Below, one piece after another: positions 30,988 through 36,329 of a stretch of 64,000 nucleotides of DNA. The notes below the pieces were generated by a model that saw only the letters and a list, made by a program, of their open reading frames with translations, did not search any database and was not told the origin of the DNA. The stretch's first letter is position 1. Each line of letters begins with the position of its first letter. Made by a program: the position numbers and the translations under genes. This DNA comes from Perkinsus olseni (lineage: Eukaryota > Perkinsozoa > Perkinsida > Perkinsidae). Where the stretch lies: the NCBI GenBank assembly GCA_013115135.1, contig JABANP010000119.1:1-64000 (forward strand), in the 5' to 3' direction.

Positions 30988-32586
30988 TCAATTTGAGAGC
31001 TGACCCTGTCCAATGGAAGAGGCTACGGGTGTCGGGGGACCAGCAGTGGTTGGGGTATGATAGAATGCCTGGACTGCTGCCCTCATCCTCTCATAGTTAT
31101 AAAGGGACTCCCTCAGTCCATCCAGCATACGCTCTAAGTCCGCAACATGTTCTGATACATCCTCCCCCTGCTGTTGCTGGGAGGCCACCCTTTGGAGTGG
31201 TGCAGTGGGGACAGCGATACTATCCGGTCCACCCTCAGCTGGTGGAGACTGCTGCGGTGGTGGTGATGCCTGCTGAGGCGCCTGGAACAAATAGTCGTAG
31301 CGGACGTCAATCGGAGTCCTGAAGTGAGGGGTAGTAGTGAAATGTACTTAGGAAGCACCCTAGCGCGGAACGTCGATAGTATCAGGTTGCTCGAACACTT
31401 ACTTGCAAGTAGGGCACTGTTTGTTCCTCTTCAAATGCTTGTCAATATCACAGGCTTTGGTCTTATGGAAGACATGCATGCAGGGTAGCCGTCGGACGAG
31501 GTCTCCAGGTACAAAGCGTTCAAGACAGATTGGACAAAACTCGTCAGCCCCCGAGCGATCATAATATGACGACGATGATGACGACGACGACGCTGCATCG
31601 GTACTCGTACCCTGCTGTTGGTGATGTGGTGACTGGTCATCATGCTTCATACTGCTGCTGCTGGGTTGCACCGCCGAGAGCACCGTATTAGCCTCTAGCA
31701 TGTCCTTGGTGGCAAAGGGCATAGCCCCATTACGGCAGTCCCTTATATGAATCAAGCATCTTGTTATTGATGACATGAATACCTAACAAAGCGGTGACAT
31801 CAAGCACTGTAATGTCGTTGTGGCAACAATAGACTGACCTTAGTGAGACGAGCCAGCCATTCTATGGCATGGGTCTGGGTAGCAAACCACTGTGGTGCTA
31901 TAGCAACCATGTCCAAGTTCATACCATCGGAGGGGCCACTGCCGGCTGGACCCCCACACTGTGTTAGACGGCAATAACGCATGGTGGTGTTCCAAGAGGC
32001 TGCTGTGTAAGCTATCACCTCATCAGGCAGATCCGCAGAGGTGAGATCGAACTTGGATATGAACCTCAGGTAGTTCTCAGTGGGGTCGAAGAATATTTGG
32101 AAGGATAGTTCCCCTCCACCTACAGGGGCAGGCTGGAACTTACACCGCAATACTAATGTTGTTGAATGGGCTTCTGTATCGTTATCAAGGGCACCAAACC
32201 CAACGGCACGAGCATCACAGGCCACCACTGCCACCATGAGATCAGAAGCATCCATCACGTACCGACCCCAGGATTCATCAGTATTTACTGCTACATCCAT
32301 GCCCTTGCCGGAGGGAACATCACCATTCGCGGTAGTAGTGGTAGCTTGCTCTGTGCCCAGCATGACCGGTACATTCGTTCTTTCTCTTGTCGGAGTTGTC
32401 CGTGACGTGTTGTCGATCAGCGACCCAGCTAGCAGCAGCATTACCGAGAGCATAGCCTGCTAAAGCACACCACAGGCCGCCCAGACCTAGACGTAGCCAA
32501 TGGGCTACCTCAGGACCAACAGAAGAGGAGGGAGGCGACGATGGAGTCATGGTCTGAAGGAAACTGGTGGCAACATACTCTGACAT
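30988..32586 (-). CDS. Membrane-anchored RING-finger protein (putative E3 ubiquitin ligase)
   Basis: Exons joined by frame: ATG at 32586 with a hydrophobic helix (LGLGGLWCALAGYALG); a 94-nt intron (32444-32351) fits best; a ~170-residue region of unknown fold (FQIFFDPTENYLRF, AIEWLARLTK); a 56-nt phase-0 intron (31838-31783); then a Ser-rich linker and a RING: CPICLERF...RLPCMHVFHKTKACDIDKHL...CPTC. The spacing between the second His and the next Cys is two residues longer than the usual RING-H2. After another intron the tail reads TPIDVRYDYLFQAPQQ and ends at 30988. The gene may continue, since a 28-nt intron at 31012 would open another exon and coding-like sequence runs on to about 30586. 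RING proteins recruit E2 enzymes for ubiquitin transfer; location would be an internal membrane. Confidence 0.65.
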
Positions 32587-32694: not shown

Positions 32695-34427
32695 TTAGTG
32701 GCTAGCCTCCTGCTGTTGTAAGTGTTTGAACTCCATCTCCATATTATTCCGGGCTCTGGTCTCAGCATCGGGCCCACACAAAGCAAACATCGCCTTGTCG
32801 CCGCTGCACACTGATGAAAGGAACTTCGATCGTTGCTCAGCAAACACGCTGGGGCCTCCGACCACGGGCTCGTACTCCTGCCTTATCCCATCAGCATACT
32901 CTTGATAACGGGTCGCAGGGGAGGCTAGGATGAGCAGGTCCAGATCCAGGAAGGCATTGAGTGTCGGGTACTGGGCCTTGGGGTATACAGTTCTACTGGA
33001 TACGTGGTTCTCGGTCGCTAGGATGATGGTCGATACATCATCCCTCAGCTCAGGGTCTATGCTGCCTGCTGCATCTTCACAGAAACTCATCCACAGCTGC
33101 TGACTGGCCTTCTCATTGTTATCGAGGCCCGGCACGTATATAGCATCATGGAACCATGCACAGAGCTCGAGGCAAGTCCTTGAAGGGCCGGCCACCACCG
33201 CTGATGCTGGCAGGGGACCATTACCCGCCCTAGAACACTCAATGTTGTCTAGTATCTCTTTAACCTGCATTGTGAGAATAACCGAACCCAATAGAACTAC
33301 TGCAATGCCGGTGGTATTACATGATTGAGGGTATGATAGTATCGCCACGGTTGGAGGTAGAGGTCCCTTAGTGTAGACCACCAACCATCAATCAACTCCT
33401 CCTGCTGCTGGCATCCCTCCCTGCCATCGAACATGCAAGCCTTTGATACTAGTGCATGCCATCTATCGTACCTACGTTGTAAGTGATGATGAGCCAGGCC
33501 ACTGGCCAAGTAGCAATCGCCCGATTACATGGCAGTCAAGGGCACCTCTCCACCCGCCTTGCCGCTAATATACTCTCTAGTATCAGTGGAGCTTATCTTA
33601 GCATTGTCATCATCAGCATTGGAGCTGTGGCTTCTCAGGTTAACTTCTACTATCGTAACCTCAGGGCACCCAGCCTCCTTCCGAGCCTCGTTCACCACAG
33701 CACCACCCTTGGCTGTCTCCGTAGTGACCACTAAACAATCGAAGTCTCTCAGGGTCCTAGCTGGTCCTATAGGGTCTCTCGTAATATCAGGTATAACGGC
33801 GACCTCGCAGTGCCAGTCGGTTGGTCGTATATCTTGGACAAAGCGCAGGGCCTCCTTCTCTCTTACATGGAATGGTTGTAGTGCCTTAGCAAGCCTTTTA
33901 TGTTGTAACAGCTCACCTGCTACCAACGCTAACCGCAGTGTCTTCCTGGCCATAAGGAAGCTGCGGGTTATAACAGCACGATGGCCAACATGCAGATGGT
34001 CGAAGGTACCAGCAAAGAGGACATGATCGAAGTGGGCCAGTGAGGCCTGGTCCGCTACGGCATGCTCCTCAGAGGCTACTGCTGGCAGCAACACATCTAC
34101 CTTATCCCCATCCATCAACCCCACAGCACCAACTAGAGGGCACTGGGGCCCTCTAGTGAAGGGCAAGGTGTCGTTAAGACGGACTTGGACGTCCAAGAAG
34201 GGATGACCGTGCTCCCCAGCAGCCTGGTATAGACTATCTATAATGTCACATAGGGTAGTGGAATCATACTCCAATCCAAAACGATGTGGTAGGATGCTGA
34301 TTATGAGCCTAGTACGGGCCAGCGGGGCCGCCACTGCCACGAGGGGGCCTAGTGACCATAGGGCCGCCGGTGACGTATCCTTCAGCGTAGATGATGCTAT
34401 GAGAACTGTATCTGCAATGGTGGGCAC
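32695..34427 (-). CDS. Phosphopantetheine adenylyltransferase fused to an HD-type (COG4339-like) hydrolase
   Basis: Exon 1 (to 33529) encodes a eukaryotic-type PPAT, the fourth step of coenzyme A synthesis (ATP + 4'-phosphopantetheine to dephospho-CoA). It has a ~130-residue N-terminal extension as in COASY, then the nucleotidyltransferase motif AGTFDHLHVGHRAVI (~139-153) and the ISSTDTRE motif. A 57-nt phase-2 intron (33528-33472) joins it to a second domain: YDRWHALVS, RYYHTLNHV (across a 56-nt intron, 33320-33265), CAWFHDAIYV, NNEKAS, then FLDLDLLILA and EQRSKFLSSV. That is the His..HD..Asp pattern of predicted metal-dependent HD phosphohydrolases of the COG4339 type. No dephospho-CoA kinase domain is present. 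No in-frame ATG precedes the HD domain and no spacer exists, so one protein is favoured. The start is unclear: the frame opens at 34443 without an ATG, so a short upstream exon is likely. Confidence 0.72.
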
Positions 34428-34449
34428 ATCATCAATACAATGGTGGTAT

Positions 34450-35116
34450 TAGGTAGAGGGACGGTACCATATTGGTACTGCCTAGGCAGTGGCGATGTAG
34501 AAGTGGCTGAACAATCGATTGGTGTTTTCTCGTGTATAGTCGACATTATATGAAGAAACTACTACTAGGGACTCAGCATGCTGCACCACCAGTGGAACTC
34601 AACACTGCAATTGCTGTTGTAGAGTGCAAAGACTATACAGTAAATGGCTAGTTGCAGGGGCATCAGCAGCAGCGGCAGCAGCAGTCAGTGAGTACTCTGC
34701 TGTTGCTGCTACCGCCACTACAAAAGAGTGCAAGGTGGATAGCTGGTAGGATAGTTGAATCTACAGTCGGATCTACAGTTGACCACAGTAACATCATAAG
34801 CAACTGCATCGGAGCCCATTCTTGGCCCATCCCTTGGTGGTATCAAGTTGAGAGGGTATGGATGATCAGCCTCCATGTGGTCCAGGGTGGTGGTGATGAG
34901 GAGGGAGGCCTTCGAGGACGCTACTGGTCTCACTACACCTCTGCCAAAGCTGGGCACCAGTGAGCTTCTCCTGAAAGGGGTTCACCGATCCAACAGTGAA
35001 CAGCAGCAGCAGACACTAACGGTCTTACATAGCCTAAAACCTCCCCCCCAAGCCGTGATGCCTCTGTAAGTGCATGACAGCAGAGGCAGGGGTACCATAC
35101 CCTTCGACGAGCAGTA
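34450..35116. other. Mostly non-coding, possible 3' exons of the F-box/SPRY gene
   Basis: Minus-strand blocks at about 35050-34935 (GEVLGYVRPLVSAA) and 34930-34718 look weakly coding and could extend the F-box/SPRY gene. No independent gene is supported. Confidence 0.35.
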
Positions 35117-36158
35117 CTACGTGTAGTACCTAGCAATGGTGTAGATGATTATACAAGACAGCACCGCTTGCCTACAACCAGAGAAGGAGGAGCTTGGTAT
35201 GGTGATGCTCCGTTCCCACAGTGCCGAGGTGTCGGGCAGCCTCCTTAGGAAGATAACATCTCCAGTATACAAGGACATGCACAGTCCTACGACTACACTA
35301 CCAAGACCACCACCATCGCCTACCACAGTATTGGGTACATGTATAGGGTTGGGCGCCATGCCCACTAGAGCAGTCCCTGTATGGTATATGGTACCAGATA
35401 TGGGGTCAATGGCTATACCCTTACCGCACACTCTACTACGTGAACGATCCACAGTGAGATTCTCACTAGTGATAGAATCACAGAAACCCAGAGAAAAGTT
35501 GCCAGCAGCTTCTTTATTGTAGTGTATCCTGAATGATACCTGTACCCAACATCTATCATCCACATGCAGCGGCAGTAGTGGCGTTGGACTACAGGGGCAT
35601 ACCCCGAGTAACTGAGGTCAGCGTAGCGTGTTGAGCAGCATGAGAGGCGTCTTCCGTATTAGTACCGTAGTAGCGGTGAAGGTCAATCGCTTAGCTGCAA
35701 TCCTGGCAGACCTGTGGTCGAAGAAGAATGCCTTCCGCTGTGATTCACCGATTCCCGATCGGCTGCTGACGGTCAGTAGCTTGGGGCACTCGTCCATAAC
35801 GTGCGATACTGAGAGCGATAGGGATGATTGGACGCGATAATGAGGATGACAAGGGTGCACTACATGAACGCATTTTATTGGCCTTGTCCTTCCACGGTAG
35901 ATCAGGGCAGCCCTGCTGTTTCCGAGCAGCACAGCACCACAGTGACGGTCCACCGAGGTTGATAGGAGCGATACGAAGCCCACTGCACATCCTCTTACAG
36001 ATATCCTCTACCAACCCATCACCTACTGACCGCAGGGTACGACAGGTTAGCTGTGACGTGCAGAGGGATGGGGTATCCAACCACAGTAGTATATGCAGTA
36101 GAACCTCTGTGGGCAGTGCAGTGAGGTGCAGCAGCAGCAGCGGGCTAGTAGGGGTGGG
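35117..36158 (-). CDS. F-box and SPRY domain protein (FBXO45-like)
   Basis: The upstream exon carries an F-box: LPTEVLLHILLWLDTPSL then TCRTLR, the Skp1-binding helix pair of SCF ubiquitin ligases. About 150 residues later a B30.2/SPRY-like domain reads CWVQVSFRIHYN, FSLGFCDSI, GIAIDPISGTIYH and GSVVVGLCMSLYTGDVIFLRR, the usual strand pattern ending in gDvxxFxxN. F-box plus SPRY is the FBXO45/Fsn architecture, which targets substrates for ubiquitination. Intron joins between 36080 and 35560 were not all resolved, and the start lies upstream of 36158 (the frame opens after a TAA there, probably at an intron acceptor CTACTAG). The 3' end may extend to about 34718. Confidence 0.55.
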
Positions 36159-36329
36159 GGAGAGGGGTTACTGAGGGGCATGCATAGGGCATAGAGGGAC
36201 AACTGCATTATCATTACTGATGATGATGGACAGTAAGCATCATTCTAACACGACACTGCGAGGATGGGGCAATAAATCATAAGCTATACTACAGTAACAG
36301 GAGGAAGCGAACAGAATGGTACACAGTTG

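Follow-up and report, generated by a model that had tools for sequence, protein, structure and literature searches.

A Perkinsus olseni gene joins phosphopantetheine adenylyltransferase to an HD-family hydrolase with a very probable role in coenzyme A metabolism

The window analysed here is a 64,000-nucleotide stretch of the Perkinsus olseni genome (contig JABANP010000119.1, positions 1 to 64,000, assembly GCA_013115135.1), in which a first-pass annotation had proposed that one gene joins a eukaryotic-type phosphopantetheine adenylyltransferase (PPAT) of coenzyme A (CoA) synthesis to an HD-family hydrolase. We find a single gene on the minus strand, whose predicted start is an ATG at 34546 and whose stop codon lies at 32695, with three introns of 56, 57 and 56 nt that are each bounded by GT and AG, and with a predicted product of 560 residues. 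The motifs quoted earlier for both halves are all present on this strand. The gene is organized as follows.

34468..34546, minus strand: exon 1 (predicted), the ATG with the N-terminal 26 codons and one further base; the frame is open and continues into exon 2 across a GT-AG intron
34412..34467, minus strand: intron 1 (predicted), 56 nt, GT-AG
33529..34411, minus strand: exon 2, eukaryotic-type PPAT, with the motifs GTFDHLHVGH (residues 161-170) and KISSTDTR (residues 298-305)
33472..33528, minus strand: intron 2 (57 nt, GT-AG, phase 2), which falls between the two domains and opens with an in-frame TAA; the P. marinus protein P0001 crosses the same junction
33321..33471, minus strand: exon 3, start of the HD domain, with YHTLNH (residues 366-371)
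33265..33320, minus strand: intron 3, inside the HD half, 56 nt, GT-AG
32695..33264, minus strand: exon 4, the remaining HD domain (HD at 410-411, NE at 421-422, H458, D480) and the stop codon

The junction between the two halves is as first described: a 57-nt phase-2 GT-AG intron (33528 to 33472) whose removal joins them in frame, with ...LTAM continuing directly into YDRWHAL..., and neither a start codon nor a spacer ahead of the HD part. The earliest in-frame ATG of that part lies at 33434, 12 codons 3′ of intron 2, and translation from it would lose a stretch containing W325 and L328 that is invariant among PPAT–HD fusions. An RNA that retained intron 2 would terminate after PPAT, whereas spliced RNA would link both halves. 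The gene start, in contrast, had to be moved. The codon previously taken as the start, at 34427, is GTG, and a better candidate is the ATG at 34546, reached through an additional predicted intron of 56 nt (34467 to 34412); exon 1 and intron 1 are a prediction without confirmation from a relative, P. marinus P0001 being truncated in that region. When the 61.5-Mb assembly was searched at E-values up to 10 and the best candidates were scored, each half had one location.

A search of 5.8 billion proteins (each protein search scored the 7998 candidates sharing most words) returned 15 matches, eight of which carry PPAT and HD together. These are the P. marinus model P0001 (375 residues, N-terminally truncated, 71% identity), which reads the junction as ...NAMYDKW..., and seven full-length two-domain proteins, namely P0002 (510 residues), P0003 from the ciliate Blepharisma stoltei (511 residues), and P0004–P0007 together with P0009 (476–479 residues), of which P0004 and P0005 are 89% identical. 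The other seven matches are nucleotidyltransferase proteins without this HD domain, and two of them, P0008 and P0010, combine PF01467 with PF01121. An alignment-based search returned 16 proteins and no additional PPAT–HD fusion. Because the two domains recur together in seven other full-length proteins, chance is ruled out, and the comparison of predicted proteins confirms that the fusion is real and encoded by one gene. It had been asked whether relatives always keep the two domains in separate genes; they do not, as the single proteins of P. marinus, B. stoltei and others demonstrate. Nor is the arrangement peculiar to P. olseni: besides these proteins, analogous fusions occur in bacteria and archaea.

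The N-terminal half carries the HxGH and SST motifs of eukaryotic and archaeal PPATs within one nucleotidyltransferase domain. Against NCBIfam PRK00777 it scores 79 bits (E 3.8e-22), under the cut-off of 104, and against Pfam CTP_transf_like it scores 20.4, under the gathering score of 21; the relatives P0002, P0003 and P0004 do score above the Pfam cut-off, and the fold of P0004 matches PPAT structures. Like the window protein, animal COASY combines a eukaryotic-type PPAT and a long N-terminal extension with a second CoA-related domain, but this domain is a dephospho-CoA kinase (DPCK) in COASY and an HD hydrolase here. A COASY-type protein was considered and rejected: PF01121, the DPCK domain, has no match in the window protein, which contains no kinase domain, and two adjacent DPCK matches (67.9 and 43.5 bits) are located elsewhere in the assembly, on contig C101. 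PRK01170, a model for a bifunctional PPAT and nucleoside triphosphate (NTP) phosphatase, offers a precedent for PPAT with a phosphatase and was matched at 38.3 bits, solely over its PPAT part.

The C-terminal half displays an HD metal-site pattern composed of YHTLNH (366-371), HD (410-411), NE (421-422), H458 and D480. H-x3-H, HD, NE, T-x2-H and the second D of DxD are invariant in a 9-row alignment of the fusions and in a 13-row mixed alignment of HD domains, and the metal-ligand positions are invariant also among 43 bacterial members, chosen from 54 candidate rows. Comparison of the protist profile with the profile of these 43 members (hhalign, A3 against A5) gave a probability of 100% and an E-value of 7.7e-62 over 199 columns, and on this profile evidence the HD half of the window protein belongs to a prokaryotic HD family. 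The window's HD half has no match in Pfam, including HD (PF01966), or in NCBIfam; Pfam HD is matched weakly by 11 of the 43 bacterial members (best E 0.0014), and NCBIfam gave one stray weak match on seven protist HD domains. The earlier label COG4339 is provisional as to the COG number; one relative (P0038) is named at JGI as a ‘predicted metal-dependent HD superfamily phosphohydrolase’.

Searches of solved structures with a single HD sequence or a small alignment yielded no relative, while a deep alignment yielded two weak significant matches, BH2835 (3dto, E 3.5e-4) and YedJ (3gw7, E 9.7e-4), at 22–23 bits and over part of the HD domain. These YedJ/YpgQ-type phosphohydrolases, the only significant matches by sequence among solved structures, share the H-x3-H ... 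HD ... D pattern, but the similarity is weak, and the conserved NE and T-x2-H belong to the profile of the window's own family. Class I cyclic nucleotide phosphodiesterases show high fold similarity but 12–18% identity among the matches listed, and no PDEase model is among the families listed for the 43 bacterial members.

The protist HD profile found 68 loci in a collection of 84,980 species genomes, at 23–35% identity, and none of the bacterial loci among them matched a profile of eukaryotic-type PPAT. Three loci (L028, L030, L071) without a recognised HD frame were left out; among the 65 with a definable frame, 59 frames measure 192–286 residues and six are longer. Partner genes were sought with profiles for bacterial CoaD, CoaX and CoaE, the latter two being narrow. 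In a Melainabacteria metagenome-assembled genome (MAG; locus L014) a type III pantothenate kinase (PanK) is followed by HD, and in a Bacteroidia MAG (L068) HD is followed by CoaD. We note that the family is also fused to CYTH (L031, 5362-6564) and to DUF4031 (P0035), which may hint at further substrates, and that two HD proteins have N-terminal extensions (L100, 892-2094; L178, 2020-3558) with no Pfam family above cut-off.

Within the class of L068, 38 matches in the 295 genomes searched reach 125 bits or more, the next standing at 82. Eight of the 38 are HD–CoaD proteins of 316–337 residues (G001, G118, G284, G260, G044, G235, G207 and G081) with a confirmed nucleotidyltransferase domain, and at seven of these eight loci the same gene, peptidase-like by eye, precedes them. 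Their CoaD part scores 83–92 bits, under the curated 103.3, and is the sole CoaD match at E 1e-8 in seven of the eight genomes; the remaining genome, G081, has a canonical CoaD too. Canonical CoaD is present in all eight comparison genomes that carry a stand-alone HD.

In the phylum of L014, a match at E 1e-25 is present in 30 of 292 genomes, with one PanK–HD, one CoaE–HD (L147; TIGR00152, 141.7 bits) and 28 others, including an HD with an unassigned N-terminal extension (L148). The class of L147 adds detail (9 of 289 genomes at E 1e-15): four PanK–HD, the same CoaE–HD and four others. When the HD part of L014 served as the query of a protein search, 23 proteins were retrieved, 15 of them (P0019–P0033) with a PanK domain, although P0032 covers just 38% of the HD query. 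Two more (P0037, P0039) have a canonical CoaD ahead of HD, two (P0036, P0038) resemble pieces of the CoaD–HD kind by eye, one (P0035) has DUF4031, and three (P0034, P0040, P0041) carry HD without an assigned CoA partner.

Gene order extends these associations. At L008 (Kangiellaceae MAG), L024 (Pacearchaeota MAG), L060 (Bacteroidetes MAG; one genome with L083) and L082 the HD gene has a CoaD-CoaE gene as its immediate same-strand neighbour, and at L072 a distance of 2.1 kb separates the HD gene from a CoaD gene. The phylum of the Pacearchaeota genome (351 genomes) holds 22 matches in 21 genomes at E 1e-18, and 16 of the 22 are fused to, or beside, CoaD- or CoaD-CoaE-type genes. Six are CoaD–HD fusions (L158, L159, L160, L162, L165, L172) and two are triple CoaD-CoaE-HD fusions (L169, 1492-3252; L170, 211-2070), in which bacterial-type CoaD and CoaE score above curated cut-offs; NCBIfam places every CoaD of the eight fusions, as well as the two CoaE domains, above cut-off. 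Eight have a CoaD-CoaE-type gene alongside (L155, L156 from the genome of L024, L157, L161, L163, L167, L168 and L174, where HD is present as its C-terminal part only); six of these neighbours are confirmed by Pfam, and those of L167 and L168 rest on a purpose-built CoaD profile. The remaining six (L164, L166, L171, L173, L175, L176) have neither fusion nor neighbour. On viral contigs, a CoaD-CoaE gene adjoins the HD gene at 3 of 13 loci, in the order HD, then CoaD-CoaE (L183, 3001-4678; L184, 3001-4678; L185, 2980-4705); Pfam confirms L183 and L185, and L184 has the same score as L183. The three contigs possibly carry a virus-borne CoA-rebuilding module.

A tree of 136 rows (thinned from 181, with 14 named proteins, duplicates and weak domains excluded beforehand) has little resolution: stars mark 20 of its 133 inner branches, the deep branches are unresolved, and the protist fusions fall in two groups. 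In an approximately unbiased (AU) test on 47 hand-picked rows, a single protist clade is not rejected, the tree that holds it together being 22.5 log units better (p 0.83), and a single clade of all PPAT/CoaD fusions is not formally rejected either (p 0.08). HD–CoaD (99) and PanK–HD (97) form one branch each, and CoaD–HD takes at least two changes by the starred branches. The tree alone does not settle the number of independent fusion events; we argue for several even so, because partners and domain order differ.

The partners of the HD family thus comprise three steps of one pathway (PanK, PPAT and DPCK); PPAT occurs most often, on either side of the HD domain and drawn from two PPAT families. 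Recurrent fusion or pairing of HD relatives with different CoA enzymes in bacteria and archaea makes a previously unrecognised role in CoA metabolism probable. We consider it very probable that the family is a hydrolase of CoA metabolism, in keeping with the earlier suggestion for the HD part, which gains from the fusions and pairings with PanK, CoaD, CoaE and CoaD-CoaE. The full claim, that the window encodes one bifunctional protein made of PPAT and an active metal-dependent HD hydrolase of this family, is likely in view of the conserved fusion, the intact motifs and the recurring CoA partners. Most simply read, the HD enzyme would form or use up a compound at the 4′-phosphopantetheine node, and we infer as its substrate a pantetheine-containing phosphate ester, diester or pyrophosphate.

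A mechanism consistent with these sequence patterns would run as follows. The N-terminal half is likely the cell's PPAT, converting 4′-phosphopantetheine and ATP to dephospho-CoA and pyrophosphate, and the C-terminal half is likely an active, metal-dependent hydrolase whose HD family serves CoA metabolism in bacteria, archaea and some protists. The HD half would convert a trapped or degraded form (cyclic phosphopantetheine, carrier-protein phosphopantetheine, or a derivative of CoA or dephospho-CoA) to 4′-phosphopantetheine, which the fused PPAT would then rebuild to dephospho-CoA. We favour production of 4′-phosphopantetheine over its removal because of the compact CoaD-CoaE-HD modules in small archaeal genomes and viral contigs, although this salvage or repair direction is tentative and falls somewhat short of even probability. 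Cyclic phosphopantetheine formed in CoA breakdown is old CoA chemistry. A more specific and rather speculative proposal is that the family is a missing (cyclic) phosphodiesterase or pyrophosphohydrolase of CoA repair and salvage that acts on a dead-end pantetheine phosphate, for example turning 2′,4′-cyclic phosphopantetheine into 4′-phosphopantetheine. On the same proposal, and with the same reserve, HD, PPAT and DPCK might form a compact CoA-rebuilding cassette across protists, bacteria, small-genome archaea and viral contigs, in which the protist protein would channel the repair step into PPAT.

Several observations complicate a simple account. Most relatives lack a CoA gene in their vicinity: this holds for 62 of the 68 loci in the collection search (flanks of up to 6 kb), 28 of 30 in the phylum of L014 and 28 of 38 in the class of L068 (about 1.5 kb in both). 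Separate PanK is present in all four PanK–HD genomes examined, and separate CoaE in four of five genomes with HD-linked CoaE (G409, G223, G050 and G743; not G742). One HD each is joined to CYTH and to DUF4031. Separately, clustering of the genes around HD loci gave no neighbour family in more than five loci, and a search for DUF4031 neighbours found nothing.

The same partner pattern can be read differently. The HD half may be a brake, a phosphomonoesterase that strips the phosphate from 4′-phosphopantetheine or its oxidised forms and so lowers or cleans the substrate pool of PPAT. This would account for PanK as well as PPAT fusions, HD monophosphatases exist (PMC8177086), and PANK4 sets a precedent, as it likewise couples a CoA-pathway domain, a pantothenate kinase-like one, to a metal-dependent hydrolase. 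The kinase and the hydrolase family (DUF89, unrelated to HD) are different ones, and an activity of the PANK4 phosphatase on 4′-phosphopantetheine is reported (PMC9352595), which the HD half of the window protein is not known to have. Destroying the substrate of PPAT makes little sense, however, in compact CoaD-CoaE-HD modules, and we regard a brake as possible but rather unlikely. House-cleaning is a weaker candidate still: here the HD half, attached to nucleotide-using CoA enzymes, would clear away abnormal nucleoside triphosphates, a by-product of nucleotide nature or products that had been mis-adenylylated. BH2835 and YedJ are the closest solved proteins by sequence, and we take YpgQ to be of their type; the CYTH fusion also fits. 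YpgQ is reported to hydrolyse (d)NTPs and to have H25, H29, H58, D59 and D124 in its site (PMC8177086). Such a role fails, however, to predict why CoA partners recur so often, at three steps of one pathway and in six architectures, and it appears improbable.

Two further alternatives deny the HD half an activity or its place in the protein. It may be catalytically idle and serve as a sensor or scaffold, for example by binding CoA for feedback; CoA enzymes are feedback-regulated, and the Bacteroidia HD–CoaD proteins lack the C-terminal part of the HD domain, but the metal-ligand positions stay invariant in the fusion, mixed and 43-member bacterial alignments, which leaves this very improbable. 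Alternatively, the gene model may conceal two genes, with PPAT ending at TAA and the HD gene starting alone, for instance behind a trans-spliced leader. The PPAT frame does enter TAA if intron 2 is kept, and trans-splicing is known in Perkinsus; yet no in-frame ATG precedes 33434, and the P. marinus model and the seven other full-length relatives are single proteins. With no earlier start codon and a conserved fusion, we rejected separate genes or an artefact as scarcely credible.

The recurring partners bear on how the pathway is drawn. CoA biosynthesis is usually shown as a closed, fully known route of five steps, and a widespread hydrolase family that has been joined time and again to three of these suggests a repair, salvage or control reaction that has so far gone unrecognised; the pattern of partners yields a short list of candidate substrates, and the protist fusion adds a PPAT architecture unlike the animal enzyme. 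As far as we found, the HD family is uncharacterised. The titles and abstract openings of the literature searched, which mostly lies outside subscription journals, describe no such fusion, an absence that is not proof, and COG4339 is not mentioned in that literature; by term search, HD domain is absent from an apicomplexan CoA review (PMC8717973).

Two further open frames on the minus strand flank the gene in the window. By eye, one (31399-31782) has a RING-finger-like cysteine/histidine pattern, and the other (35745-36167) has an F-box-like start.
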